This document shows positions 7,694 through 33,402 of a DNA stretch of 64,000 nucleotides, piece after piece (position 1 is the first letter of the stretch; each line of letters starts with the position of its first letter). A model generated the notes under the pieces. It worked only from the letters and a program-made list of their open reading frames with translations, had not been told where the DNA came from and did no database searches. The translations under genes were made by a program, and so were the position numbers. Location: positions 1 to 64,000 of the forward strand of contig JAEPQH010000001.1 in assembly GCA_017640605.1 (NCBI GenBank). Direction: 5' to 3'. The DNA comes from Balneolaceae bacterium. GTDB taxonomy: Bacteria > Bacteroidota > Rhodothermia > Balneolales > Balneolaceae.

Positions 7694-8314
7694 TTATTTA
7701 ATAATCGGATACAAGGTTTCCCAAATGGTATCCGCTACTATTTTGTGTCCTTGAGCATTAGGGTGAATCTGATCGGCCAACATGTATTCATCGTAACCGC
7801 CAACTTTGTCTAAGATCATCGGAATCAGCGGTAAGTTGTTTTCTTTTGCAAGATCGGGGTAGAGATTCACGAACTCTTGTGTGTATTCGATGCCCAAATT
7901 CGGAGGCACTTGCATGCCGGCAATAATAATTTCCATATCCGGATTTTTTTCAAGGGCTCGATCAATAATGGTTTGTAAGTTTTGTTTGGTGGATGTGAGA
8001 TCGATACCACGTAAACCGTCATTTCCACCTAGTTCGAGAATCATAAGATCTACTTTTCGCTGAAGCACCCAATTGATTCGTCGTGCTCCACCGGCTGAGG
8101 TTTCTCCACTTAAGCCTCCATTAATGACCTCGTAATTGAGTCCCACCGAATCTATTTTTTCCTGAAGTATTGCCGGGAAAGCCTGATCTTTTTCCAGTCC
8201 GTAACCTGCGGTAATACTATCACCAAAAATGAGAATGGTTTTCTTTTCTTGTGCCATCGTTAAGACAGAAGTGCAATAAATAAGAGTAAATATGAAGAGT
8301 AATTTTTGGCTCAT
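7694..8314 (-). CDS. tesA: TesA-like SGNH arylesterase/thioesterase I, periplasmic
   Basis: About 206 residues from the ATG at 8314, which places a signal peptide at the N-terminus (MSQKLLFIFTLIYC). The frame stays open to 8428, but the extra 38 residues are not leader-like. Motifs: GDSITAGYG (Ser33), ELGGNDGLRG, and DQIHPNAQGH. It matches E. coli TesA in size, order and context: tesA is divergent from the ybbA-ybbP ABC genes there too. Expected activity is hydrolysis of acyl esters or acyl-CoA in the periplasm; the natural substrate is not known. Confidence 0.85.
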   Translation of the reverse strand: MSQKLLFIFTLIYCTSVLTMAQEKKTILIFGDSITAGYGLEKDQAFPAILQEKIDSVGLNYEVINGGLSGETSAGGARRINWVLQRKVDLMILELGGNDGLRGIDLTSTKQNLQTIIDRALEKNPDMEIIIAGMQVPPNLGIEYTQEFVNLYPDLAKENNLPLIPMILDKVGGYDEYMLADQIHPNAQGHKIVADTIWETLYPIIK

Positions 8315-19073: not shown

Positions 19074-20450
19074 ATGAAATCTTATAATTCGCAATCGGTT
19101 CCTTCCGGCTTACAAGTTAAAGTGAGCAAACATGGTTCACCACGAATCGCACAACTGCTAAAAAATACTGTGTTTGGCACTGAGGGTAAATTGCAATATC
19201 GCCAGCGCGAGATTGCAGAAAGAATGCGTACTCAAGCAAATTTACAATTTATTGAGATTTTAAAAGCTCAACGTGTACTTGGCACCGTTGGTATGGCTCG
19301 CCGACCTGTTTACCATGGCGATGACTACATGAACACGTTATATGTTCGATATTTATCTATTGCCCGGCAGTTTAAGCGGAAAACCGCCAATGAAAACAGG
19401 AAGCGCGTTCGTTCAACGGCAAAAAAAGGTATGCTACGCGAGCTGATTGGTAATGAGATAACTCACCATTTTGAGGCTCCCTTTCATGAAAAAGATATGA
19501 AAGGAGCATTTTACGCATACGTTGAATCTGCAAATTCGAATTCCCGAAATCTTTGCTCGTCGATGGGATTTAGGCCCACTCGCAAAGTAGAAACCTTACT
19601 CTTTAGTAGGTTTAATCCGAAGCAAAACAAGAACATTCTGAACGCGGGATTAAACGCACAAGATGAAATCAAAAAGCAGCTCAAAGAATTTTATAAGGAT
19701 TACTCTTTTTATTTCGAAGATCGAATTTTTAACACCGGCTTCTATTTGATTTATCAAAAACAGGGGGAAATAATTGGGGGAATCAGAGCCGTTCCGGTTC
19801 ACTGGCAACTTGTTGACTATCCAGGTTTTGAAGGCTGGTTAATGCGAGATTTTCTTCCCTATCTCCCATTTACAAATCGATTATTCGAACCAAATTCGTT
19901 CAAATTTCTAGCTTTCGATTACGCCTGGCACAAAAAAGAAAAAGAGCATTTAATTCCGGAATTGATGTCGCATTGCTGCTCTCTTTTTGGAATTAATGTG
20001 GGCATGATTTGGGGAGACACCCACTCTGAGTTAATCACCAATCTTAAAGCGAGTGCTCAGCTTGGTTTTTTACATTCGGTAGTAGGTTCAGTGTACGCTG
20101 ATTTGATGCTTCGACCTATTAATATGGATTTGACTGAGCCGAGTGATTCGGGAGATTCGGGTGATTCGGGTGATTCGGGTGATTCGGGTGATTCGGGTGA
20201 TTCGGGAGATTCGGGTGATTCGGGTGATTCGGGTGATTCGGGTGATTCGGGTGATTCGGGTGATTCGGGTGATTCGGGTGAGGAAGCTGATCAAGATGAA
20301 TCAAAAGATCAAGAAAGCAAACAAATTTCAAAATTGGAGGAATCTGAGGAATCTGAGGTAGAAACTACGATTCCTGTGAATGAAGAGTTGGAGCACTGGA
20401 AAAAAATTATGGCACGACCTGTTTTTGTGAGTGCTTTAGATATGACTTAG
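19074..20450 (+). CDS. GNAT-like protein with C-terminal (Asp-Ser-Gly)15 tail
   Basis: A 458-residue protein. The N-terminal 350 residues look like a tandem acetyltransferase (GNAT) fold: YVRYLSIARQF and AYVESANSNSRNLCSSMGF resemble GNAT motifs A and B (acyl-CoA binding followed by an S-x-x-L-x-x-x-x-G-F helix), and a second copy GGIRAVPVHWQ to ASAQLGFLHS. No signal peptide, so cytoplasmic. Residues 358-402 are 15 perfect Asp-Ser-Gly repeats, followed by an acidic Glu/Asp/Ser/Lys linker and a final conserved-looking segment LEHWKKIMARPVFVSALDM. The substrate is unknown. It is monocistronic, with a 4-bp convergent overlap with the 12-TM gene. Confidence 0.55.
   Translation: MKSYNSQSVPSGLQVKVSKHGSPRIAQLLKNTVFGTEGKLQYRQREIAERMRTQANLQFIEILKAQRVLGTVGMARRPVYHGDDYMNTLYVRYLSIARQFKRKTANENRKRVRSTAKKGMLRELIGNEITHHFEAPFHEKDMKGAFYAYVESANSNSRNLCSSMGFRPTRKVETLLFSRFNPKQNKNILNAGLNAQDEIKKQLKEFYKDYSFYFEDRIFNTGFYLIYQKQGEIIGGIRAVPVHWQLVDYPGFEGWLMRDFLPYLPFTNRLFEPNSFKFLAFDYAWHKKEKEHLIPELMSHCCSLFGINVGMIWGDTHSELITNLKASAQLGFLHSVVGSVYADLMLRPINMDLTEPSDSGDSGDSGDSGDSGDSGDSGDSGDSGDSGDSGDSGDSGDSGDSGEEADQDESKDQESKQISKLEESEESEVETTIPVNEELEHWKKIMARPVFVSALDMT
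20145..20279 (+). repeat. In-frame 9-bp tandem repeat, 15 units
   Basis: Fifteen perfect GATTCGGGT units encode Asp-Ser-Gly; only units 1 and 7 differ, both ending GGA. The matching variants six units apart suggest a six-unit block was duplicated. Because the unit is 9 bp, copy-number change alters tail length without frameshift. All six frames stay open here, producing spurious reading frames on both strands. Confidence 0.97.
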
Positions 20451-21655
20451 TTTCGAGCAGACTTCCACATCAAAATCAGATACCAGATTGCTGAAATAAC
20501 AGGCAGAGCAGCAACAGCTGTCATCGATTGGAAGATCCAAATTCCTTTCATCGTAACCGGAATCAGGTTTGTAGGCAAGATTAAGGAAACCAACACGACT
20601 AAGCAGGAAATTACCATCCCCAGGTAAATTTTATGGTTTATTTGGTAACGCTGACAAATCCAACCAAATCCTGTTAACGTAAATGCCCCTAATAAGAGAA
20701 TATGCAGGTAGAGTACTCTTAAATTGTGATCCGACAGCCAGATTTCATTAGGGAAAACCGATATTATTAATCGAAAAAGAGCCTTTATCGCCAATAAGAT
20801 AATGGGCCATTTCCAAATGGAATTACTTAAGGTATTGGATTTGAATGCTCCATAAATAAAAGCTAACAGACCAATGGACGATATTAAACCACCAATTCTT
20901 GCCGACCACAATAGCTCCAGACTCAGCATAGAACTTGGCAAACCATATGCGAATGAAAGTGGCGCTCCAATTGCAATTAAAGTCATTATGGTTCCTTGAG
21001 AGATACGGAAAACTTCCGGTTTTAAATCCATGGCATGTACGATAATGCCAATTATCACAAGTACTACCCACCCTTCAGTGAAAGTACCCAAGAAAAAGTG
21101 AGTAAGTGCTTTCGGTAAAAGTACATTTTGCACCTCAACAAACTGAAGCACTCCTACGCCCCAGGCTCCAAATGAACTAACGATAAGCATCAATAATGCT
21201 ACCGAAAACCAGGAATGGTACTCATTCGTCGATTCTTTTTTAGATCGCCAATAGCCGATGGCAAATAGGTACCACGCAATCATTACAAATGAAGATGCAA
21301 TTGCAGCTAACGGTAAGTTTGCGCTACCAAACGCAACTGGGTGATATCCCCACATCAAAAAAAACACAAAGGTAATGGGTGATAAAATCACTATTGCCCA
21401 CAATGCTAAGCTTTGTAGTCGGTTTGAAGTGTGTGCAAAGCCATCGTTCAAATTATTGTTCGCAACCAAAAATGGGATCAAACCTGCCCAACCAAAGAAC
21501 ATTAAATGAGAATGAGCATGGCGGACATTCTGCAGGCTTAATCCAAATAAATCGACACCAAGCATGCCCGCCCTAAAAAGTACACCGGTACAACCTGCGA
21601 TCACAAAAAAAAGGACTGCAAAGCGCCAAAACACTCGGTTGGTTGGAGTACTCAT
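20447..21655 (-). CDS. Multi-pass membrane protein (about 12 TM) linked to the nos cluster, NnrS/heme-copper-oxidase-I-like
   Basis: About 402 residues, almost wholly hydrophobic helices (roughly 12). Histidines lie in or near membrane segments: RHAHSHLMFFGW (about 46-57), LTHFFLGTFTEGW and HNLRVLYLHILLLG. Such His placement recalls NnrS and cytochrome-oxidase-subunit-I-like proteins that bind haem or copper and are common near denitrification genes. It is last in the nos gene row, 10-16 bases after ric, which supports a role in nitrogen-oxide metabolism or its repair. The ATG at 21655 is chosen over GTG 21661. Exact family uncertain. Confidence 0.5.
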   Translation of the reverse strand: MSTPTNRVFWRFAVLFFVIAGCTGVLFRAGMLGVDLFGLSLQNVRHAHSHLMFFGWAGLIPFLVANNNLNDGFAHTSNRLQSLALWAIVILSPITFVFFLMWGYHPVAFGSANLPLAAIASSFVMIAWYLFAIGYWRSKKESTNEYHSWFSVALLMLIVSSFGAWGVGVLQFVEVQNVLLPKALTHFFLGTFTEGWVVLVIIGIIVHAMDLKPEVFRISQGTIMTLIAIGAPLSFAYGLPSSMLSLELLWSARIGGLISSIGLLAFIYGAFKSNTLSNSIWKWPIILLAIKALFRLIISVFPNEIWLSDHNLRVLYLHILLLGAFTLTGFGWICQRYQINHKIYLGMVISCLVVLVSLILPTNLIPVTMKGIWIFQSMTAVAALPVISAIWYLILMWKSARN

Positions 21656-21671
21656 TCTCACTCGCTTATTT

Positions 21672-22364
21672 TTACACAGATTGCGCCATGTGTTCTACTT
21701 TTGCAAAAAGCACATTGTTTTCAAGATGGACGTGTTTGTGTAAATCATCTTGAAATTCCTGTAAGGTTTTAAAGTAAATTTGATAGGATGAACAGGCTCT
21801 TTCCGGAAATTGGAATCCATTGCTAAGCTCACTTAACTGCTCCATTATCGAGCCCGCTGCTTCGTGTTCGTCCTCCAGTTCAGAAATCAATAATTCTTCC
21901 ATTTCTGATGAAACCCCTTCAGCCTCCCATTGCTTTATCAAAGGAAAAGTATGTTGTTCTTCTTTGTTTAAATGGCTGATCATCTCATCATTTAAATCAT
22001 TTACCAGCTGATTCATTTTGATCAACTCCGGACGCTCATATCCGTGAACTCGAGCCACTTTTCCGGCTAGAAATAAGAGATAAGGTAGCTTCTCAAGCAC
22101 GTATTTGTGATGATTGTTTATGATGTAATCAATCAAAAAACCGGGCGACCAATCATTATATCGATGCTCCTCGGCTCGATTAATCGTAGCAGTTTGGATA
22201 GCGCTAAGAACATCCTCTAGCTCGATCTTTTTCGATGAACATGCTTCAGCCAAACTTTTTTTACCTCCGCAGCAATACTCGAGTCCAAATTGTTTGAAAA
22301 CAAAAGCAGTTCGATAATCTTCGGCTACAATTTCGCCAATTGGTTTTTGTTCAAATGATGTCAT
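21672..22364 (-). CDS. ric: Iron-sulfur cluster repair di-iron protein RIC (ScdA/YtfE)
   Basis: A 230-residue protein. The N-terminal DUF542 domain (about 1-60) has the signature FGLEYCCGGKKSL with paired cysteines. A hemerythrin-like four-helix domain follows, with di-iron ligands visible as HHKYV, HGYE, HLNKEEQHTF, EDEHEAAG and HVHLENN. RIC proteins rebuild Fe-S clusters damaged by nitric oxide or peroxide. It lies in the nos gene row between nosY and the 12-TM gene, consistent with defence against nitrogen oxides made during denitrification. Confidence 0.92.
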   Translation of the reverse strand: MTSFEQKPIGEIVAEDYRTAFVFKQFGLEYCCGGKKSLAEACSSKKIELEDVLSAIQTATINRAEEHRYNDWSPGFLIDYIINNHHKYVLEKLPYLLFLAGKVARVHGYERPELIKMNQLVNDLNDEMISHLNKEEQHTFPLIKQWEAEGVSSEMEELLISELEDEHEAAGSIMEQLSELSNGFQFPERACSSYQIYFKTLQEFQDDLHKHVHLENNVLFAKVEHMAQSV

Positions 22365-22383: not shown

Positions 22384-23166
22384 TTAAAAGTCTTTTGAGG
22401 TTGCTATCCTAAGAACCAGTCCACTTGGTAAAAGCGACCAGATTGCAAGCAAAGTGAATGAAATGCTGATGCCAACGACTGTCCCGAAAAATTTCTGGTA
22501 TAGAGCTCCGGTATATCCTAAAAGTGCAGATATATCCAATTTTAAAAGGATCAGAATTCTGGAAAGGTCAATGGGATTTAGTACGGTACTTACCAGTGAG
22601 AAAGTATCGAGCGGGTAATCCTGAAATTGCATCATAATTACCAACAGCATTCCGTCGTAGAGAATGGCGAAAATAAGCCACATCAGCAGTGCATAGCCAA
22701 ATCCCTTCACTTTATTGTCGTTTTTTAGTGCGATGATGTACGCCAATCCCACGAAAATGAAGGTAAGTACCACGCCATCAACCAAAAGAATGAGGAAATC
22801 GAAAATGGCGTCGGAATAGAGTAATCCATAGAATAAAAACGGTATTCCCAAGCCTAGTACTAAACTCAAACTAAGTGAAATACAAAGCCCATAAAGTTGT
22901 CCTAAAAAAATGGTGCTTCGTTTTAAAGGATGAGCAAGTAACAATTCGGTAAAGTCGGAGGAATTGTAATAGAAGATGACGCCAAAAATGGTGCCTACCA
23001 GAGGAGCCAGAATCAGCAAAATATTCATTAGCGAGATGATGGCACTACTAAGATCATTACTTAAAAAAAGCAGCGCTGTACTAGTTAGCATAAAAAAGAG
23101 CATGTAAAAAATACTCCATCTGCTTCGGAGTAAATCATAAAATGTATATCTAATAATATTAAGCAT
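22384..23166 (-). CDS. nosY: NosY-type ABC permease
   Basis: A 260-residue membrane protein with six predicted helices (e.g. FYMLFFMLTSTALLFL, LILAPLVGTIFGVIFYY, LPSGLVLRIA at the end). The ABC-2 type topology and position after the ATPase gene (8-bp overlap) identify it as NosY of the NosDFY complex. That complex uses ATP to supply the copper/sulfide site of nitrous oxide reductase. Its motif FTELLLAHPLKRS resembles the coupling helix of this permease class. Confidence 0.88.
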   Translation of the reverse strand: MLNIIRYTFYDLLRSRWSIFYMLFFMLTSTALLFLSNDLSSAIISLMNILLILAPLVGTIFGVIFYYNSSDFTELLLAHPLKRSTIFLGQLYGLCISLSLSLVLGLGIPFLFYGLLYSDAIFDFLILLVDGVVLTFIFVGLAYIIALKNDNKVKGFGYALLMWLIFAILYDGMLLVIMMQFQDYPLDTFSLVSTVLNPIDLSRILILLKLDISALLGYTGALYQKFFGTVVGISISFTLLAIWSLLPSGLVLRIATSKDF

Positions 23167-23866
23167 GTTGATCCTCCATTAAACGTGCAATCGCACTCTC
23201 TAAACCTTCGGTGTTTGTAGTTGATGTTAGCTTTTCAATGCTACCTTGATAATGAATATGGCCCTCCAGTAGAAACACCACTTCATCGGCCACTTCTTCC
23301 ACAAAATTTAAAATGTGCGATGTAACTAGAATGGTTTTTCCGGCTTCTTTTTGTTCAGCAATTAATTGCTTTAGAATTCTGAGTGCAATAGGATCTAAAC
23401 CGGTTGTGGGTTCGTCTAAAATCAGGTAATCGGCATCGAACATGAGAGCCATCACAATGTTGATTTTTTGCCTCGTTCCCCCCGAAAGGTGTTGTAGTTT
23501 TTTATCCAGATATTCATCCAGTTTAAATCGCTCGATGAGTTCACCGGCATTATTATTGGATGCGCGCACAGAGCTCACCATTTTAAGTAACTCACGAGCT
23601 GTTAAATTTTCGGGAAAGCGTGCAATCTGAGGCAAATATCCAATGTTATTTCGATACTCTGCTTTTCCATTTAAGCGGTAATTATCGAGATGAATGCTTC
23701 CTGAATCCGGAAAAACCATGCCTAACAGTGATTTGATTAAGGTAGTTTTTCCCGAACCATTGGGACCTAATACCGCCGTTACTTTTCCCTGTGGCACTTC
23801 AAAGTCGATGCCTTTCAAAACCTCGAGTTGGCCAAATTTCTTTTTTATGTTCTTGAATTCAATCAT
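23159..23866 (-). CDS. nosF: NosF-type ABC ATPase
   Basis: A 235-residue ATPase with Walker A GPNGSGKTT (about 34-42), Q-loop GYLPQIARFPENLT, signature LSGGTRQK, Walker B YLILDEPTTGLD and H-loop VTSH. The start overlaps the end of nosD by 4 bases (ATGA) and its end overlaps nosY by 8, so nosD-nosF-nosY are translationally coupled. It drives NosY in maturation of the catalytic Cu centre of NosZ. Confidence 0.92.
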   Translation of the reverse strand: MIEFKNIKKKFGQLEVLKGIDFEVPQGKVTAVLGPNGSGKTTLIKSLLGMVFPDSGSIHLDNYRLNGKAEYRNNIGYLPQIARFPENLTARELLKMVSSVRASNNNAGELIERFKLDEYLDKKLQHLSGGTRQKINIVMALMFDADYLILDEPTTGLDPIALRILKQLIAEQKEAGKTILVTSHILNFVEEVADEVVFLLEGHIHYQGSIEKLTSTTNTEGLESAIARLMEDQHA

Positions 23867-25101
23867 GATGGCACTCTCATTAATGGTGAATTATCGATTA
23901 AATCAACCGGGGTAAATACCGGAGCTACGTTTTCTGTAAAGTTGATGAGATCCACAAAAAAGCTGCGAAGTAACACAATACTTTCTGGAGTTTTATTTAC
24001 CACATAAGAAAACAGTTTCACCGGCCGATGCGGCACATCGCCGATGCCATCTTTATTTAAATCATATCCCGAATAGGTACTCCAGTAATTTCCGGTAAAC
24101 TCATTATCGTTTAGCCGGCTGTTAAATGAAACATCGAAGGAATTGTTAGAAAAAGCGTTGCTAAGAAACTTATTAGAATAACAACCTCCCGACATTTTAA
24201 CACCCCAGCCATTAGCCGAAAGTTTGTTGTGTTGATAAGTGATTCGCGATGAACCTTCTACCGCAATAGCTACGGTGTTTTCATCAAAAGTATTACCGGT
24301 TATTTCGGCGTCATAGATTTCTTTTAGTAACAAACCGAAAGAGGCTGTTCCCCAATTATTTAAAAAGTGGTTGTCTTTCATTTCGATGAATTTTGAAAAC
24401 ATCACCGCAACACCCGCTCCGTTTTTTGTAAAGGTGTTGTTACTGTACGCATTGTTATTGCTGAACATAAAGTGCAATCCGTACCTAATATTATTCTCGC
24501 TCAAATTGTTAACAACTTCCGAGTTGTCTACAAATTCGAGGTAGATGCCATCGCGCAAATTTCGGATTTCATTTTCGGTAATCACAAGTTCTTTACTCTT
24601 CCAGGCATGTATTCCATTTCCTGAATAGAACTCCATTTCCGACTCGCCGGATAGCTTATTATTTGTGATCCTTCCTTTCGAACTTCCTTCAATCAAGAAG
24701 CCAAAAAATGCATCTTCTACTGTCAACCGATTGAGGGTAAAGTGTTTGGTATTGGATACGTGAACGGCAGCATATTCTTCGGTGTGAGACAGCCCTACAT
24801 GTCGAAGGGTTAATCCTGAAATGGTAGCATTCGTAGTTTGCACTTTGAGAATGGTTCCTTGCTTTTGTCCATCTATTATCGCCCCGTTTTCACCTAAAAT
24901 TGTCAAAGGCTTGCCAATGGCGATGTTGTATTCAAAATAGACTCCTTCCTCAACAAACACGGTATCATAAGCTGTTGCCAAATCTATACCCTGTTGAATC
25001 GAACTTATGGTACATGTTGTGCAGACAGTAATCTGTGCTTGTACACATAGTGATGTAATAAAAATGGTCATGAATCCTGCTATTAACCTTTTATTTGTCA
25101 T
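23863..25101 (-). CDS. nosD: NosD, periplasmic beta-helix maturation protein
   Basis: A 412-residue exported protein (signal peptide ends near residue 22, SLCVQA). From about residue 65 it is a right-handed parallel beta-helix of CASH/NosD repeats: recurring N-x-x-S/x-x-N-x-x-x-x-N ladders such as ITNNKLSG, VITENEIRNL, AYSNNTFTKN and NEFTGNYWSTYSGYDLNKDGIGD, the last being a typical NosD terminal element. NosD docks on NosFY and hands copper or sulfide to NosZ. Two cysteines in TVCTTCTIS (about 25-33) may be metal-related but lie close to the mature N-terminus. Confidence 0.92.
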   Translation of the reverse strand: MTNKRLIAGFMTIFITSLCVQAQITVCTTCTISSIQQGIDLATAYDTVFVEEGVYFEYNIAIGKPLTILGENGAIIDGQKQGTILKVQTTNATISGLTLRHVGLSHTEEYAAVHVSNTKHFTLNRLTVEDAFFGFLIEGSSKGRITNNKLSGESEMEFYSGNGIHAWKSKELVITENEIRNLRDGIYLEFVDNSEVVNNLSENNIRYGLHFMFSNNNAYSNNTFTKNGAGVAVMFSKFIEMKDNHFLNNWGTASFGLLLKEIYDAEITGNTFDENTVAIAVEGSSRITYQHNKLSANGWGVKMSGGCYSNKFLSNAFSNNSFDVSFNSRLNDNEFTGNYWSTYSGYDLNKDGIGDVPHRPVKLFSYVVNKTPESIVLLRSFFVDLINFTENVAPVFTPVDLIDNSPLMRVPS

Positions 25102-25124: not shown

Positions 25125-25544
25125 TCATTTGATGTGTTTTCTGATGGTTTCCCAGGTATACAAAGTTCCATCAAAGCCCACATTTAATGCATCTTCACCC
25201 GTTGCAAACGCTGATAAATTTGCTCCCATCGGGCTTGGCAATCGAGGCGCGATTAAATAGGTAGCTTCCGAAGCATTCAAATAACTTCCCGGATTGTTGA
25301 AATCCATAACTACAATTTGATCAGCGTTTTCGCCATAGAATTCAAGACTTCGAAGCATGCATTCAATCGAGTCGTACACATATACTTTTCCTGTATTGGT
25401 GACAATCTGAGCTGCATGTTTGTCGTCCATTATTGTCATGCTGCAGAACTCACAATTTTCATGACCATACATAATTTCTTTAGGACCTTTTTGACATGAC
25501 GTAATCAAAAAACATATACCAACTATTAACCAAAGCGTTTTCAT
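25125..25544 (-). CDS. nosL: NosL copper chaperone lipoprotein
   Basis: A 139-residue lipoprotein (LITSC, Cys17). The NosL Cu(I)-binding motif is visible as ENCEFCSMTI (Cys31, Cys34, Met36), followed by KVYVYDSIECML with Cys62. NosL delivers Cu(I) to the nitrous oxide reductase maturation system. The gene sits between the four-TM gene (1-base gap) and nosD (23-base gap), all on the minus strand. Confidence 0.92.
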   Translation of the reverse strand: MKTLWLIVGICFLITSCQKGPKEIMYGHENCEFCSMTIMDDKHAAQIVTNTGKVYVYDSIECMLRSLEFYGENADQIVVMDFNNPGSYLNASEATYLIAPRLPSPMGANLSAFATGEDALNVGFDGTLYTWETIRKHIK

Positions 25545-25545
25545 T

Positions 25546-26124
25546 TTAAGCCTCTATTTTTTCAAGTTTACGTTCGTAGAAATAAGCGTAAAGGGTCATG
25601 AACATTCCCACAAACATGAGGTAAGCACCCATTAATGGTTTTGAAATTGCGGTAAAGTTCAGGATTTCTTTCACCCCAATTAACGGTGGCTGATAACCCT
25701 GTCCCGGAATTTTAATCGCCGCTTTTGGATCAAGATTGTGCCCGTATTCATATTCCCACAGGTAGAAATCGTACATACCTGCTGCTCCCAGAATACACAT
25801 CAGGATAAACCAGGTGAGATATAGATTTTTATTGCCGATAAAGCCGAATAAAACTCCTAAGGCTGCCATCGAACCAATTACGATGGGAAAAATGTCAAAT
25901 TCTTTCATGTGTTCAGGTATTTCAGCCATGCCCACATAGTGATTCATCAGGTTTATATTTTTGATGTCGTTGGGGTTCATATCTTCGATTTTATTTATCC
26001 AGATATTCATCCCAATTGAATCAGGGTATTGTGGAGCTTTTAATGTGATGTTCCACATTGGCATCACGAATAATGAGAGTAGTAATAAGGAACCACCGAT
26101 CATTAAATATTTCGAGGTTTTCAT
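25546..26124 (-). CDS. Four-TM membrane protein between nosZ and nosL, unknown function
   Basis: A 192-residue protein with four predicted helices (about 5-25, 85-105, 107-127, 160-180) and a periplasmic loop of about 55 residues containing NHYVGMAEIPEHMKEF. The loop has His, Met and Glu residues that could contact metal. I do not recognise a named family, but small membrane proteins in this slot recur in nos clusters of Bacteroidota-like bacteria as far as I recall. Position (nosZ, this gene, nosL) implies a role in NosZ assembly or electron delivery. It ends 1 base before nosL. Confidence 0.65.
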   Translation of the reverse strand: MKTSKYLMIGGSLLLLSLFVMPMWNITLKAPQYPDSIGMNIWINKIEDMNPNDIKNINLMNHYVGMAEIPEHMKEFDIFPIVIGSMAALGVLFGFIGNKNLYLTWFILMCILGAAGMYDFYLWEYEYGHNLDPKAAIKIPGQGYQPPLIGVKEILNFTAISKPLMGAYLMFVGMFMTLYAYFYERKLEKIEA

Positions 26125-26204: not shown

Positions 26205-28163
26205 TTATTCGCCGTCTAAACTCCAGGATAATTCTATGTTGGAGTTGCGTGGTGAAACGCGCACGTATCCTTGCATTTCCTGGTGAAGTGCTGAACAGAA
26301 ATCAGTGCAGTAGAACGGCCATACACCCACTTTTTCAGGCTCCCACAGGAAGGTTTTTGTTTGTCCCGGCATGATTAGCAATTCAGAGGTATTGGCTCCA
26401 ATCATTGCAACACCATGAGGTACATCAAAGTCTTGCTCGAGGTTAGTGATGTGGAAATACACCTTATCACCTACTTTTATTCCTTCAATATTATCAGGAG
26501 CAAAGTGGCTACGAATGGTGCTCATATACACATGCACAACATTGCTGTTTCCTTCGCGCACAACCTTAGTTTCGCCTTCATTCATCACTGCGTAAGGGTG
26601 TTCGTTATCTTCTAGCTGATAGAATTTTTTGGAACGAGGCGCGATCAAGCTTGCTGGAGCACCGGCCGCATAGTGAGGCTCACCGTGAGTTGGGAAATCA
26701 AGCAGAAGTTCCATTTTCTCGCCGCTGATGTCGTACAACTGTGCAGAGTGTTCCATTTCGGGACCGGTTGGTAGGTAACGATCTTTAGTGATTTTGTTCA
26801 TCGCTACAACATATTTACCGAATGGCTCACGTGAATTTCCACCCGGAATCATTAAGTGACCCACTGAATAATAAGTTGGTTTACGATCGATAACTTCCCA
26901 GCTGCCAAGCTCCCATTTCACTACTTCTGATGAAATAAAGAAGGTTGTATATGCATTTCCACGTCCGTCAAACTCGGTGTGCAATGGGCCTAAGCCTGCA
27001 GATTCAACTTGTCCGGCGGTTACGTTTTCGAAATTTAGAATTGGAATTCCATAAGCATCGCCATCAAAATTTTCGTTTTCGATAGCTTCCATCATATTCG
27101 AGAATGAATGCACAGTAAGTGATGCTGATAATTTACCGGCACCAACAATGTATTCACCGGAAGGATCTACATCCACACCATGCGGAGATTTTGGAGTTGG
27201 TAAAAAGTAAACCAATCCTGGTAATTCAGTAGGATCAAGAACTCGCACTTCTTTCTTCATGGTAGAAGTTCCGGTATGCGTGTGCTCATCGTATACGTTA
27301 TGCGCATACTCAGATTCCATAGTGGTGAATTTACCCTGAGCGATATATTCTTCAGCTTTTTTCCAGTTTATAGCTGCAATAAAGTCTTTATCGTTTTGAG
27401 ACGCATTAACTTCTAACAGCGTATTTGCTTCCTCTGTATTGTAAGTGGTGAAGAAAAACCAACCATGTGAATCACCGCGACCAGGATGCCCAAGATCATA
27501 GTTAAAGCCAGGCATCATGATTTGGAAAGAAAGGTCCATACGTCCACTTTCTTCATCCACGCTTACAAAACTTACAGCACCTTTAAAGTTGCCTTTATAT
27601 TCGTCAATCGATATATCGCGCTGTGGAACAGGTACTGAAAATCGAGTACCGGCTACAACATATTCGGTATTTTCGGTGATAAACGATGAACTGTGGTTAC
27701 CTGCTGAGTTTGGAATCTCAATGATTTCTTCTGTTTCGAAGGTTTCTAAACTGATGCGGGCAATACGTGGAGTGTTATTCGCATTGGCAAAAATCCAACG
27801 GCCATCCAATTCACCATTCGTTTGTGAGATATCCGGGTGATGCAAATCATCCCAAGGGATAAAACCATACGAAGTATTAAACATTGGCTTAGTTTCTTCA
27901 GAATAGCCATACCCTGAAGTTGGGAACTGAGAAAATACCGGGATTTCCTTTAACATCCGTCCGGATGGAAGTCCGTACACTGTTAAATTTCCGCTATAAC
28001 CACCGGATAAGAATGCGTAAAATTCATCCTGTTCGCCCGGAGCTACGTACACTTTTTCGGCAGCGCTGCCACCAAGTGCACCATTATTATTCGACTGCAT
28101 ACATGCAGAACTCGCCATCGCAAATAGTACCGCGAAGAGAGTTATGTAGTTTGTTAATTTCAT
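26205..28163 (-). CDS. nosZ: Nitrous oxide reductase NosZ, clade II (Sec-type, lipoprotein-like leader)
   Basis: A 652-residue enzyme reducing N2O to N2 in the periplasm. The leader has no twin arginine and ends at SSAC (Cys21), as in clade II enzymes. The N-terminal propeller carries CuZ histidines, e.g. DDLHHPD (His108, His109), GDSHGW, EYAHNVYDEHTHTG, SPHGVDVDP and GPLHTEF. The C-terminal cupredoxin has the CuA set: VPHG, then C619-x3-C623-x3-H627-x2-M630 in YCTDFCSALHQEM. No nosR is present, which is usual for clade II. Upstream lie FAS1 and cytochrome c genes in the same transcript direction. Confidence 0.97.
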   Translation of the reverse strand: MKLTNYITLFAVLFAMASSACMQSNNNGALGGSAAEKVYVAPGEQDEFYAFLSGGYSGNLTVYGLPSGRMLKEIPVFSQFPTSGYGYSEETKPMFNTSYGFIPWDDLHHPDISQTNGELDGRWIFANANNTPRIARISLETFETEEIIEIPNSAGNHSSSFITENTEYVVAGTRFSVPVPQRDISIDEYKGNFKGAVSFVSVDEESGRMDLSFQIMMPGFNYDLGHPGRGDSHGWFFFTTYNTEEANTLLEVNASQNDKDFIAAINWKKAEEYIAQGKFTTMESEYAHNVYDEHTHTGTSTMKKEVRVLDPTELPGLVYFLPTPKSPHGVDVDPSGEYIVGAGKLSASLTVHSFSNMMEAIENENFDGDAYGIPILNFENVTAGQVESAGLGPLHTEFDGRGNAYTTFFISSEVVKWELGSWEVIDRKPTYYSVGHLMIPGGNSREPFGKYVVAMNKITKDRYLPTGPEMEHSAQLYDISGEKMELLLDFPTHGEPHYAAGAPASLIAPRSKKFYQLEDNEHPYAVMNEGETKVVREGNSNVVHVYMSTIRSHFAPDNIEGIKVGDKVYFHITNLEQDFDVPHGVAMIGANTSELLIMPGQTKTFLWEPEKVGVWPFYCTDFCSALHQEMQGYVRVSPRNSNIELSWSLDGE

Positions 28164-28194: not shown

Positions 28195-28743
28195 TTACAG
28201 AATTACTTTATCTACCACGTTGATGATGCCATTCGAGGTTTGAATGCTGGCAATCACTTTCGCCCCTTCTACAAATACTTCGTCACCTTCAGTAGTTACT
28301 GTTAGGTAAGAGCCATCGGCCATGTATAACTTTCTGCCTTTACTGGCTTCTTTTTTCAAACCGTCGATATTGTAAGAACCGGGAGCTGCATGTTTTGTAA
28401 GTATGCCCGCGAGTTTGCCTTTGTTTTCCGGCTTTAGCAGATCTTCTACCGTTCCGGCTGGTAAGGCGTCAAAAGCAGCGTTTACCGGTGCGAAAACGGT
28501 AAGTGGACCGGCATTAACAAGCACATGCTCGATTCCAGCCGCTTGTACAGCTGCTACTAATGTGCTATGATCTTCTGAGCCAATGGCTACTTGCAGGATG
28601 TTTGGATCTGAGTCCTCATCTACAACCGACGCCTGGCCAAGTGGTGTATTATTTGGAAGGTTACTTGAAGATTGCTCACTTTTAGAAGAACAAGCTGCCG
28701 TTGCAAGTAACAGTAGTGTGGTTAAGAATGTTGTGGTTTTCAT
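28195..28743 (-). CDS. FAS1 (fasciclin) domain lipoprotein in the nos operon
   Basis: A 182-residue lipoprotein (TAACS, Cys18) with one FAS1 domain from about residue 45: H1 motif GPLTVFAPVNAAFDALP, the YH-like KHAAPGSY segment, and H2-like SNGIINVVDKVIL at the very end. FAS1 domains mediate adhesion or protein-protein contacts; some cyanobacterial and proteobacterial members are exported. Here the gene lies 1 base after the cytochrome c gene and 31 before nosZ, so it belongs to the nosZ transcript. A scaffold or partner role for NosZ or the cytochrome is an inference. Confidence 0.9.
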   Translation of the reverse strand: MKTTTFLTTLLLLATAACSSKSEQSSSNLPNNTPLGQASVVDEDSDPNILQVAIGSEDHSTLVAAVQAAGIEHVLVNAGPLTVFAPVNAAFDALPAGTVEDLLKPENKGKLAGILTKHAAPGSYNIDGLKKEASKGRKLYMADGSYLTVTTEGDEVFVEGAKVIASIQTSNGIINVVDKVIL

Positions 28744-28744
28744 C

Positions 28745-29221
28745 TTATTCTGATTTAAGGGTTCGGAAATATTCTAATACTGCTCGGGTCTCTTCTTGAG
28801 TGAGGTTCTGATTCGCCATAGGCGTACCGTTGTATTCCATTAGCAATTCTTTGGCAATAGGGTCTTTTTGTACCATTTCCATAGGATTCATGATCATGTT
28901 GGCAGTCCATTCGGGAGTTCTGCGATCAAAAATTCCTGCCATTTCAGGCCCGATGTAACGCTTATTTGGTTTATGACAAGCCGAGCATTTCGCTGTGAAA
29001 ATGGATTGCCCTTTATCAGCAAGCGGCTGATCGATTTCTGCCGCAAAGCTGATGGTACTTACAGGACCAATTCCTTTATTCGTAGTCCAGTCTCCGGGAT
29101 CGGCGGTAACTTCTGTTGCAGCAGTTCCTTGTGCATCCTTCTCCTCTTCAGAACCGGAACAGGCCGAAGTGATCAGAAGTCCCAGAATTAGTAGTGTTGA
29201 AAGTAGTTTGATTGAGTTCAT
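28745..29221 (-). CDS. Mono-haem cytochrome c lipoprotein, probable electron donor to NosZ
   Basis: A 158-residue lipoprotein (ITSAC, Cys21). The haem motif is CSACH (79-83); the distal ligand is likely a Met in the NPMEM or GTPM segment (about 115-135). The class I fold is supported by the terminal helix TRAVLEYFRTL. Clade II NosZ systems lack NosR and use membrane-anchored cytochromes from the quinol pool; this is the obvious candidate. It is the first gene of the row, with an Rrf2-type operator just upstream. Confidence 0.9.
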   Translation of the reverse strand: MNSIKLLSTLLILGLLITSACSGSEEEKDAQGTAATEVTADPGDWTTNKGIGPVSTISFAAEIDQPLADKGQSIFTAKCSACHKPNKRYIGPEMAGIFDRRTPEWTANMIMNPMEMVQKDPIAKELLMEYNGTPMANQNLTQEETRAVLEYFRTLKSE

Positions 29222-29238: not shown

Positions 29239-29258
29239 TTAAGACTATTTTATCTTAT
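29239..29258. promoter_or_regulatory. Predicted Rrf2 operator upstream of cytochrome c-FAS1-nosZ
   Basis: TTAAGAC, six bases, ATCTTAT: five of seven bases of the right half match the symmetric GTCTTAA, with the same 6-base spacing as the perfect site at 29743. It lies 18 bases before the cytochrome c start codon. Confidence 0.6.
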
Positions 29259-29300
29259 TTATGTGAACAGTTTGTGAAGATTTTCTATTTCTTTAAAATT

Positions 29301-29732
29301 TTAACTTATAGTAAGCCGATGAATGATGGAGCCATTGTCGGCAATTTTCTCAAGAGTCATGCCCTGGAGCATCGACTTCAGATCCTCTCTCCGAAGCGCC
29401 CACTCCTCATGAAGTGCACATGGCTTTAGATGTCCACACCCCGGCAAACCCAGTACGCATTCGTGAAATGTATCCACTCCGTCTATGATATCCACTAAAT
29501 CATAAAGCCGTATGTTCATCCCTTTATTCGTGAGTTTAACTCCACCTTTTGGGCCTTTTTGAGATTCTATAATACGTTCGTTGGTTAACTGCTGTAGAAT
29601 TTTAGTTAAAAAATGGAAGGATATATCCAGCTTTTCTGAGATCTCTTTGATGGATATTAAACCATCTTTTTGGTGATTCGCCAAGTAAAGTGCGGCTCGT
29701 AGCGCGTATTGACATTTATTTGAAAGGAGCAT
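29301..29732 (-). CDS. Rrf2-family Fe-S regulator, NsrR-like
   Basis: A 143-residue winged-helix protein. The N-terminal MLLSNKCQYALRAALYLA and the recognition region ISEKLDISFHFLTKILQQL, then the wing GPKGGVKL, are diagnostic of Rrf2. Three cysteines C92-x6-C99-x5-C105 match the cluster-binding arrangement of NsrR/IscR (normally x5, x5). With nitrogen-oxide genes around it, NO or redox sensing is likely. It is 79 bases upstream of the cytochrome c gene on the same strand and is probably autoregulated through the operator at 29743. Related alternatives: IscR-type or a denitrification-specific Rrf2. Confidence 0.88.
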   Translation of the reverse strand: MLLSNKCQYALRAALYLANHQKDGLISIKEISEKLDISFHFLTKILQQLTNERIIESQKGPKGGVKLTNKGMNIRLYDLVDIIDGVDTFHECVLGLPGCGHLKPCALHEEWALRREDLKSMLQGMTLEKIADNGSIIHRLTIS

Positions 29733-29742
29733 GATTTTAGTA

Positions 29743-29762
29743 TTAAGACTCTTTTGTCTTAA
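29743..29762. promoter_or_regulatory. Predicted Rrf2 operator, perfect inverted repeat
   Basis: TTAAGAC, TCTTTT spacer, GTCTTAA: both 7-base arms are perfectly symmetric. It lies 11 bases upstream of the Rrf2 start codon and within the 108-bp region divergent to the copper-uptake genes. Confidence 0.7.
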
Positions 29763-29840
29763 TTTAAGAATAATTTTTTAACAAAAGCTACCCGTCGTCA
29801 AATTTATCTTTTTATTATCTTCACAATTTCTTCATAATGT

Positions 29841-30305
29841 ATGGTCAATTTAAGACTAATGAGTCTGAAATATACATATCAATCTTTCACCTCCTATTTG
29901 CTAGCCGCCGTAATAGCGTGGAATAGCTTTGGATACATTGGAGCGATGATCACGTCATTGGCTATGCATGAGATGCACCACGGAGAAGAACAGTGCGAGA
30001 AAATGTTCTGCTACTGTGAAGTTACTGATGGAATGAAGATTTGTACATGTCACCATCAAAATGAGCATCATAATTCTTCAGAAGATGATGATCATCATGC
30101 AACCGAACATTGTGTGCTCGACCTAAATCTGAATGATTATGCTCATGATGCCTCTCTCATTCAATGGGATTCCAGGACATTTATTTTCTACGAACCTCTT
30201 ACTATAAGTCCGTTTATAGGTGACTATAATTACATTCTCCCTCCTCTCATAACTATTCCTCCGGGAATACAACGTGTACTCGATCGCCCGCCCGCTTTGG
30301 TCTAA
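29841..30305 (+). CDS. Small His/Cys-rich membrane-anchored protein, probable metal (copper) binder
   Basis: A 154-residue protein (153 codons downstream of ATG 29841; an alternative ATG at 29859 gives a shorter form). One TM at about 17-41, then a segment (43-91) holding ten His and six Cys: MHEMHHGEEQC, CYC, CTCHHQNEHH, DDDHHATEHC. The C-terminal part has Pro-rich LPPLITIPPG. I do not recognise the family. The metal-ligand density and the next two genes point to copper binding at the membrane. An Rrf2-type operator overlaps the start region. No Shine-Dalgarno decides between the starts. Confidence 0.7.
   Translation: MVNLRLMSLKYTYQSFTSYLLAAVIAWNSFGYIGAMITSLAMHEMHHGEEQCEKMFCYCEVTDGMKICTCHHQNEHHNSSEDDDHHATEHCVLDLNLNDYAHDASLIQWDSRTFIFYEPLTISPFIGDYNYILPPLITIPPGIQRVLDRPPALV
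29850..29869. promoter_or_regulatory. Predicted Rrf2 operator over the start of the His/Cys-rich gene
   Basis: TTAAGAC, TAATGA spacer, GTCTGAA: one mismatch to the symmetric consensus. It spans both candidate start codons region (after ATG 29841, over ATG 29859). Binding there could block transcription elongation or mark a start at 29859. Confidence 0.55.
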
Positions 30306-30355: not shown

Positions 30356-31162
30356 ATGAAACTTTTTAAACAAAGCCTGAAGGCTATTGCGTGCACTCTA
30401 TTTGTCATTTATTCATTCAATTGCGACTCCACTGAAGTTACTTCTGAACCGGATTTCAACCTTATAAACACTACTGAAGTAGAAGGTTATACCGTTCAAT
30501 TATTTAGTGAAAGTAACTTTATAACAGGTGGAAACACCTTGTATTGGTCTATCAAAAAAGATGGAAAAACTGCGGAATTGCGATCATTCTCTGTCACTCC
30601 TATGATGGATATGGGAATGATGCAACATTCCACTCCGTACACCCAGCCAAAAGCTTATGATGAGTTCCCGGCATATTACACCAATGATGCTACCTTCATC
30701 ATGCCTAGTGGGGAAATGGGAACCTGGGATATTAAATTCACAATGGTCACCATGGCCGATGAAGAGATTTCAGGCTCTATTGATATAACAGTCGATTCAT
30801 CGTGGCACTTAACCAGTGTTAAAGATTCAAACGATCAGATGTATTTCATTAGCTGGAATACTCCACGAAATCCTACAAGTGGAAGTAACGATATTGTTAT
30901 CATGTTATACAAAAGAGAAACCATGATGAGTTTTCCGATGGTTGCTGATGCCGATGTTTCTATTTATCCATACATGGATATGGGTTCAGGGCAAGGTCAT
31001 AGTACCTCCTTTACCGATCCGGTAGCAACGGCTGATGGAGCTTATATGGGAAATATCACCTATAACATGAGTGGCACTTGGACAACCACTGTTTCTGTGA
31101 TAACAGCTCAAAACGACACCTTACCTGATGTGGTGTTCGAGTATAACGTACAAGCCAAATAA
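30356..31162 (+). CDS. Met-rich lipoprotein with two YtkA/FixH-like domains
   Basis: A 268-residue exported protein with a Cys23 that could be lipidated (SFNC, non-canonical). It appears to be an internal duplication: half 1 has PMMDMGMMQHSTPYTQP (82-98), then FIMPSGEMGTWDIKFTM; half 2 has PYMDMGSGQGHSTSFTDP (205-222), then NITYNMSGTWTTTVSV. The shared pattern M-D-M-G, H-S-T, then G-T-W is that of YtkA-like/FixH beta-sandwiches; methionine clusters suggest Cu(I) binding. It lies 50 bases after the His/Cys-rich gene and 8 before the TonB receptor. Domain names are from memory of the pattern. Confidence 0.7.
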   Translation: MKLFKQSLKAIACTLFVIYSFNCDSTEVTSEPDFNLINTTEVEGYTVQLFSESNFITGGNTLYWSIKKDGKTAELRSFSVTPMMDMGMMQHSTPYTQPKAYDEFPAYYTNDATFIMPSGEMGTWDIKFTMVTMADEEISGSIDITVDSSWHLTSVKDSNDQMYFISWNTPRNPTSGSNDIVIMLYKRETMMSFPMVADADVSIYPYMDMGSGQGHSTSFTDPVATADGAYMGNITYNMSGTWTTTVSVITAQNDTLPDVVFEYNVQAK

Positions 31163-31170
31163 GGCGCATC

Positions 31171-33402
31171 ATGAGCTTTAAGAAACATATTACTTGTTTA
31201 TTGTTGATGTTTGGACTCACGATATCTGCAGGTTTCGGCCAGCAGATATCCGTCCAAGTAATTGATGCGAGATCAGAAGAACCCGTGATTGGAGCACATA
31301 TTATGTCGGCAAAGCACGATGTTTTTGCTGTAAGTGATCTAAATGGATTCTTCGAAATAGATACAGTTGCAGTAGAATTTCCGATTATGATCCATGCGCT
31401 CGGCTATCAAATGCTTTTGATCGCAAGCCTGGAAGAGGATCATCCGATTTGGTTAACGCCAACTACCATACAATTTGATCAGGAAATAGTTATTAACGGA
31501 GGCTCCGATCATCAGCACAATGTAAATACCTATCAGCATCAAAGTTCAGATATTAGCATGGATGATTTCCTGGCCACGGTAGATGGACTTTCGATGATTC
31601 AGCGTGGAGCCTTTGCATGGGAACCTGCTATCAGAGGACAATCTGATCAGCGTTTAAATGTAATGATTGATGGCATGGCGGTATTTAAAGCCTGCGTAGA
31701 CAAAATGGACCCCATCACTTCTTACGTAGAGGTTAATAACTTAGTAAGCCTAAAGGTTGATAAGAACGGAGCATCTGTTGCCCAAAATGGAAATGGGTAT
31801 GCTTCCATTAATATGCGTACCGAAAAAGCTGCTTTTGGTGCATCTCAATTAGAGTTTGAATCGAACTACAAGGCACCGAATAACATGTATTTATTTCGAT
31901 TAAATACGAGTGGTAGTAATTCTAAAAACTCACTGTCTTACCGACTATCCGGTAGTTATCGAAAGGCAGATCAACTCGTAGCCGGAAATAATACCACTAT
32001 CGAAAACACTCAATTTGAGAAGTGGAATTTAAACTTATCGGTGCTTTCCAAAGTGAACGATCGCCTACAGATTGAAACCAACTACATTACCGACAAAGCT
32101 TATGATGTTGGGTATCCTGCCTTATTGATGGATGCAAGCTCTGCCTATGCCGACATACTTCGGGTTCAGGTTAACATCAAAGAAAATGATGCAGCATTTT
32201 CTATTCATAATGTAGCAGCTTATGCGAATTTAATTCGTCATACTATGGACGATTACAGCCGAAATGTAAGCGAGCGCGTGGTGATGAGAGACATGAATAT
32301 GCCGATGTACGGCGAAACTACAACTTTCGGATTTAATTCTGAGGGAAGGCTTAATCTGCAGAATCGATCATTTAATTGGTATTTAAATGGCTACCAATCT
32401 TCTTCTTTTGGAGATATGGAAATGATTAGCACCTCCCCGAACATTGCTGACATGTACATTTATAATCTAAATGACGTGGTTATGAACAATATTTCAGTAG
32501 GATTGTCTCACAATTGGCTGTTATCGGATCGCGCAAATCTGAGCCTTGAGCAGAATCTTCAATTTGCGAGTGTATCCACTTCAAATGCTTCAAACGTAGA
32601 GTTTTTTGAAGGGTTATATCAAAGAAAAATTTCTGAACGCATACAAGTGTTACCCTCAGTATCCGCTTCATTGTTGCACATGTTGTCCAACGACTGGAGC
32701 TTGAGCAATACCTTCGTTTATTCTGCAAGAACCGGAAATCATATTGAACAATATGGTCACTACATCTACAATTATGTAGATGGTTTCTTCTACAATGGAA
32801 ATCCCTGGTTAAAGAACGAACATGCATTTAATGGTGAAGTTGCTGTTAGTGTAGAACGCGATGCTTTCTCTGCTTCTCTTTCTTTATTCTCGAGATTTTA
32901 CCTGAATTATATTGATGGAATGTTACTGGATGACCAATCTGCCCAAGGATTGGAGTTTAAGCAATATGCTAATGTTGGAGATGCTGTTTTCACAGGTGGC
33001 GAATTACGTGTGCTTCAACGTGTAAATAATACGCTATCATTCGACCACAGAATGGCTTACGTGTACGCCCAAAATATAACCCTTAACGAACCTATCCCTC
33101 TTATTCCACCATTGAACGGAAGCTCATTGATCAATGCAAGATTTGGAGATGTTTTCACATCATTTACACTAGAATGGGCGGCAAAACAACAACGAATTGC
33201 CACTCAATCTTCCATAGAAGATCAAACCAATGGATACGCGGTGCTACACGCCAGTATCGGAAAGAGCTGGAGCAATGAGCGCGTTACCACATCGTTAAAT
33301 TTCAGAAATTTAACCGACCGTTACTACCATACACACACAAGTATCGGCAATATTCCAAGTGAAGGATTTAGTGTAATGTTTGGTTTCACTTACCAACTTT
33401 AG
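31171..33402 (+). CDS. TonB-dependent copper receptor, OprC/NosA-like
   Basis: A 743-residue receptor. Signal peptide to about residue 23, CarboxypepD_reg-like domain (about 25-105), a His-rich linker (DHQHNVNTYQHQ, 113-124), a plug (130-225) with AIRGQSDQRLNVMIDGMAVF, then the barrel ending FGFTYQL. The plug has C175-x3-M179 (ACVDKMD) and the barrel H357-x-M359 (RHTMDDY), the spacing of the CxxxM and HxM copper ligands of Pseudomonas OprC as I recall it. NosA/OprC supply copper for nitrous oxide reductase. It follows two metal-binding-type genes and is divergent from the nos row. Confidence 0.8.
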   Translation: MSFKKHITCLLLMFGLTISAGFGQQISVQVIDARSEEPVIGAHIMSAKHDVFAVSDLNGFFEIDTVAVEFPIMIHALGYQMLLIASLEEDHPIWLTPTTIQFDQEIVINGGSDHQHNVNTYQHQSSDISMDDFLATVDGLSMIQRGAFAWEPAIRGQSDQRLNVMIDGMAVFKACVDKMDPITSYVEVNNLVSLKVDKNGASVAQNGNGYASINMRTEKAAFGASQLEFESNYKAPNNMYLFRLNTSGSNSKNSLSYRLSGSYRKADQLVAGNNTTIENTQFEKWNLNLSVLSKVNDRLQIETNYITDKAYDVGYPALLMDASSAYADILRVQVNIKENDAAFSIHNVAAYANLIRHTMDDYSRNVSERVVMRDMNMPMYGETTTFGFNSEGRLNLQNRSFNWYLNGYQSSSFGDMEMISTSPNIADMYIYNLNDVVMNNISVGLSHNWLLSDRANLSLEQNLQFASVSTSNASNVEFFEGLYQRKISERIQVLPSVSASLLHMLSNDWSLSNTFVYSARTGNHIEQYGHYIYNYVDGFFYNGNPWLKNEHAFNGEVAVSVERDAFSASLSLFSRFYLNYIDGMLLDDQSAQGLEFKQYANVGDAVFTGGELRVLQRVNNTLSFDHRMAYVYAQNITLNEPIPLIPPLNGSSLINARFGDVFTSFTLEWAAKQQRIATQSSIEDQTNGYAVLHASIGKSWSNERVTTSLNFRNLTDRYYHTHTSIGNIPSEGFSVMFGFTYQL

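Follow-up and report, generated by a model that had tools for sequence, protein, structure and literature searches.

The palindrome TTAAGAY-N6-STCTTAA is very probably the operator of the Rrf2 protein encoded in the window (the whole stretch of 64,000 nucleotides of a Balneolaceae bacterium analysed here) and of its orthologues, which would act as repressors at this site. The evidence from the sequence covers the motif, its placement, its conservation and the target genes; binding, direction of control, cluster and signal we infer. The sequence-only reading had proposed that the nos/copper island shares an Rrf2 operator, which might be of a new type. This proposal is supported by the conserved placement of the motif and by its co-occurrence with the rrf2 orthologue.

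The gene of the Rrf2 family regulator (143 aa; 29301-29732, - strand) is located just upstream of a cytochrome c-nosZ run on the same strand. The first gene of this run encodes a c-type cytochrome (28745-29221), followed by a fasciclin-domain lipoprotein (28195-28743) and by nosZ for a Sec-type (clade II) nitrous oxide reductase (26205-28163; 936 bits with TIGR04246, cut-off 625). The next gene, for a conserved membrane protein of nos clusters with 192 aa (25546-26124), gave no family match. The genes nosL-like (25125-25544), nosD-like (23863-25101), nosF-like for an ABC ATPase (23159-23866) and nosY-like for a permease (22384-23166) were named by sequence, and all four are conserved neighbours in relatives. 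The gene ric (ScdA/YtfE; 21672-22364) encodes a di-iron Fe-S repair protein (230 bits with TIGR03652, cut-off 205). Beside it a multi-pass membrane protein is encoded (20447-21661), without Pfam or NCBIfam match but found near ric/rrf2 in the related loci L093, L099 and L100. All these genes lie on the - strand. At 19074-20450 a 458-aa protein was observed whose C-terminal part has a long tandem repeat of Gly-Asp-Ser (SGDSGDSGD...). A divergent run on the + strand consists of orf154 for a small His/Cys-rich protein (29859-30305), a YtkA-domain protein (30356-31162; PF13115) and a TonB-dependent receptor related to the copper importer OprC (31171-33402), for which PDB 6fok is the best solved relative (E 2.9e-17).

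Three palindromic sites were located in a 631-bp stretch of this island. The putative operator O1 (29743-29762, - strand) matches TTAAGAC-N6-GTCTTAA perfectly and lies 10 bp upstream of the rrf2 ATG (29732, - strand). A site is found at the same place in relatives, and autoregulation of rrf2 is assumed from it. O2 (29239-29258, - strand), with the sequence TTAAGACTATTTTATCTTAT, is followed after 17 bp by the cytochrome c ATG (29221, - strand) and precedes the whole cytochrome c-fasciclin-nosZ-...-ric run. O3 (29850-29869, + strand) has one mismatch and contains the start codon of orf154. The sequence-only reading had described two 7-base arms at all three sites. This holds for 29743 (perfect) and 29850 (one mismatch), but the site at 29239 deviates by two mismatches, both in the right arm. 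The six-base spacing and the position before or over genes of the island, including rrf2 itself, were confirmed for rrf2, cytochrome c and orf154. O2 lies within the natural variation of the motif, because similar variants stand at the cytochrome c-nos promoters of relatives: ATAAGAYAAAATASTCTTAA is found there and resembles ATAAGATAAAATAGTCTTAA of the window. The register of O3 over the start codon is preserved in another genus. The orf154 orthologue of G019 likewise has its start codon within a site, in the same register (L100, 16322-16341; TTAAGACAA-ATG-ACTCTTAA). Hence, the true start of orf154 is most likely the ATG at 29859, rather than the mechanically assigned start at 29841, which would be 18 bp too early.

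Counts within the window and the genome were examined regarding chance. With up to three mismatches, 6 sites were found in the window alone compared to 3.68 expected, which is not significant. With up to two mismatches, the whole genome of 3.74 Mb contains nine such places, three of them within these 631 bp; the probability of three sites clustering in this way by chance is about 2e-6. The reversed control pattern is commoner genome-wide (54 places) than the motif (9). Thus, raw genome counts prove no function, and the argument is carried by conservation before orthologous genes. For the remaining six matches of the genome (L003 and L005-L009, two mismatches each), nothing in the neighbouring reading frames tied them evidently to N-oxide or copper genes. 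These matches, inside or near such frames, were taken as chance. A random distribution of the motif throughout the genome had been named beforehand as evidence against an operator. The genome scan did not refute the operator in this way, the matches outside the three sites having no evident link to such genes. The motif is conserved before orthologous rrf2 genes.

A motif scan of the genome and of relatives, as the sequence-only reading had suggested, detected the motif in relatives before rrf2, nos, ric, nirK and copper genes. The 156 bp upstream of rrf2 were examined in 80 loci that encode proteins related to the Rrf2 regulator, with shuffles of the same stretches as control. Up to two mismatches were present in 49 of the 80 loci (best match per locus: none in 5, one in 25, two in 19), compared to 0.15 loci expected from shuffles, all at two mismatches and none better. 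The 80 loci are related and many belong to one family, so that these counts overstate the independent evolutionary events. The nearest Rrf2 proteins in named loci belong to Fodinibius, Gracilimonas, Balneola and Balneolaceae MAGs. Most sites lie within a narrow range, 2-31 bp ahead of the rrf2 start codon. Before rrf2 of a KSB1 MAG the site is perfect, and loci that carry the MAG labels Gemmatimonadetes and Zixibacteriota (misbinning is possible) have close variants. The consensus of 59 sites with up to three mismatches is TTAAGAY-AAAANA-STCTTAA with G5, T15 and C16 invariant. In Ignavibacteria the outer bases drift towards forms like TTCGGA/TCCGAA.

The flanks of the 80 loci contain 68 distinct sites that deviate by at most two mismatches, and 63 of them precede rrf2, ric, cytochrome c-nosZ, nirK, a copper ATPase or the orf154 copper operon. 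In detail, 46 sites belong to rrf2, five each to ric, cytochrome c-nosZ and nirK/nirK-like genes, two to copper ATPases and one to orf154; the site that faces ric as well as nirK is counted once in the total of 63. With the reversed pattern seven sites were found in the same flanks, none before such genes. Two sites stand before nirK, in G014 and G023. The nirK of G014 scores above the NirK cut-off; those of G005 and G023 score below it, and nirK-like is the safer name there. In the MAG locus L128 the operator heads rrf2, ric, cytochrome c, fasciclin and nosZ in one row. Genes named hemN, miaB and tryptophanase in relatives (names read from the sequence and partly backed by Pfam) were left out of the claim, as they are single or few cases. 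A second, frame-broken nosZ beside a shortened rrf2 was observed in G015 (C5, 628371-631413), with the operator still present; this copy is apparently a decaying duplicate.

Furthermore, the motif tracks the regulator across genomes. An rrf2 orthologue, called at E below 1e-30, was present in 39 and absent in 19 of the 58 relatives searched. With up to one mismatch, 60 copies of the motif were found in the 39 genomes with the orthologue versus four in the 19 genomes without, and the control pattern revealed no difference between the two groups. NosZ scored above its cut-off in 31 of the 39 genomes versus two of the 19 (Fisher p 6e-7, with p values inflated by shared descent). Nearly all proteins with the motif carry the recognition helix ISFHFLTK. 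The motif is mostly absent from a paralogous clade in which residue 39 is H or R, a comparison confounded by descent. For the His39 paralogues of L110, L112 and L122, which are without this operator, another common stretch TAAATCCRATCTTTTATATATG was observed just before the start (upstream of position 8001 of these loci). At a distance of a few kb from these paralogues lies a CRP/FNR gene.

Counted from the first base of the site, the upstream regions of 70 rrf2 genes have a TTG (-35) peak at -28/-27 and a TA-rich -10 peak at -4. With this pair at a fixed distance, the palindrome extends over both the last part of the -10 element and the expected start point, which corresponds to the arrangement of a repressor and its operator. 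By its predicted elements, the geometry of the rrf2 promoters is that of a repressor excluding RNA polymerase. A clean sigma-70 -35/-10 pair at the spacing of the family was not found in the three promoters of the window itself.

The Rrf2 protein was compared with known members of the superfamily. It clearly belongs to it, with 107.1 bits for PF02082 (cut-off 30) and 100.4 bits for TIGR00738 (cut-off 73.3). An AlphaFold model (pLDDT 84) has the Rrf2 fold, with CymR, NsrR and IscR as nearest structures (Z about 13-16). C92, C99, C105 and H108, the candidate cluster ligands, are invariant in 29 homologues. Like NsrR, the protein has three conserved cysteines, and nitrogen-oxide genes and the Fe-S repair gene ric/dnrN are its likely targets; autoregulation occurs in NsrR of S. 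coelicolor and is presumed here from the site position. In contrast, the first cysteine spacing is two residues longer (C-X6-C-X5-C compared to C-X4-C-X5-C in E. coli NsrR). Asp8, a cluster ligand besides Cys3 in NsrR of S. coelicolor (PMC5411485), is replaced by Gln8 and in relatives by other non-Asp residues. Moreover, the NsrR operator consensus gATGyAT-N5-ATrCATc (PMC1274295) differs from the sites described here; the sequence-only reading had named no published Rrf2 consensus as a certain match. The ligand candidates correspond to the Cys3-His set of E. coli IscR (C92/C98/C104/H107), but the gene context is nos/nir/copper instead of isc/suf. E43 and Q44, which contact DNA in IscR (PMC9338935), are T43 and K44 in this protein. 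RsrR is a further Rrf2 regulator with inverted-repeat sites and autoregulation; its 11-3-11 bp repeat is linked to NAD(P)H genes (PMC5015018), whereas a 7-6-7 operator occurs with nos/copper genes here. Since the scores remained far below the cut-offs of both equivalogs (NsrR, NF008240: 46.8 bits, cut-off 182; IscR, TIGR02010: 72.9 bits, cut-off 207.55), the protein is classed as neither, being NsrR-like by its predicted target genes and IscR-like by its ligand candidates. It is fairly probable that clade II nitrous oxide reductase of Balneolota and neighbouring phyla has its dedicated regulator in a separate Rrf2 subfamily, which has IscR-like ligands and an operator of its own and couples the reduction of N2O with copper uptake of the OprC type and with Fe-S repair as one regulon.

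According to the proposed mechanism, the Rrf2 dimer would bind the palindrome where this overlaps the expected transcription start and the downstream edge of the -10 element, and would block RNA polymerase. Repressed in this way would be rrf2 itself, the cytochrome c-nosZ-...-ric run and, in the divergent direction, the copper-uptake run of orf154, YtkA and the OprC-like receptor. An Fe-S cluster may be held by C92, C99 and C105, probably together with H108. Damage or loss of this cluster, most likely by nitric oxide, would release the protein, and N2O reductase, its copper supply and Fe-S repair would be induced together. Nitric oxide as the releasing signal is about an even call. It is favoured by ric, nirK and nosZ among the targets, ric being a recurrent target known from nitrosative stress and the other two typical N-oxide genes. 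The same operator and repressor could instead respond to oxygen or redox state, Fe-S supply or copper, as a respiratory-copper regulator for Nos, NirK and oxidase assembly; we regard this as possible, though rather doubtful. The Cys3-His ligand candidates without Asp8 and the copper receptor operon in the window are in line with such a signal. In Ignavibacteria loci a copper ATPase gene lies downstream of rrf2, with sites before the copper ATPase in two of them, and other neighbours occur elsewhere, which suggests that nitric oxide need not be the signal.

That a different transcription factor binds the palindrome, with rrf2 merely as one of its targets, is very unlikely. The autoregulation of rrf2 is deduced from position, and a CRP/FNR-type gene adjoins one nos operon (L093). 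However, the motif follows the rrf2 orthologue from genome to genome, it stands before rrf2 even without nearby nos genes (e.g. KSB1 locus L182), and it is mostly missing with paralogues changed at residue 39 of the recognition helix. An RNA hairpin in the 5' leader instead of a DNA operator is hardly credible and was rejected: seven-base arms with a six-base loop just before start codons could pair, but arm changes are mostly not compensatory (all seven pairs kept in only 10 of 47 distinct sites), G5, T15 and C16 never vary, and with a site beginning where the -10 element ends, the 5' arm would hardly be transcribed.

Bacteria with clade II NosZ are an important biological sink of N2O, and little was found in the open-access literature on how clade II nos genes are switched on. 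With a defined operator and a named regulator, their induction becomes a testable promoter question, and the regulon can be read from genomes and metagenomes. The operator also points to a shared regulation of NosZ and of its copper import. The link between Rrf2 and clade II nos genes is already published. An Rrf2/BadM gene beside such genes was reported for Melioribacter roseus (PMC3534657) and the association also for metagenome scaffolds (PMC6264515), and control of the nos operon by Rrf2/BadM has been suggested. The passages concerned give neither an operator nor a target-gene set for the nos-linked regulator. No published operator for a nos-linked Rrf2 was found in the open-access literature, also when searched with the motif letters; priority for the operator is not established beyond this literature.

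A further element adjoins two of the sites. Next to O2 and O3, direct repeats in tandem with a period of 11 bp, TTCACA-N5-TTCACA when read in gene direction, were observed at 29262-29281 (+) and 29817-29836 (-), and these are the sole perfect matches of TNTGAANNNNNTGTGAAGAT in the genome. They are possibly the sites of a second regulator that binds direct repeats. Similar direct repeats precede ric in 9 of 26 cases, nirK-type genes in 4 of 11, cytochrome c in 3 of 39 and rrf2 in 0 of 100, with 19 of 894 for unannotated frames.
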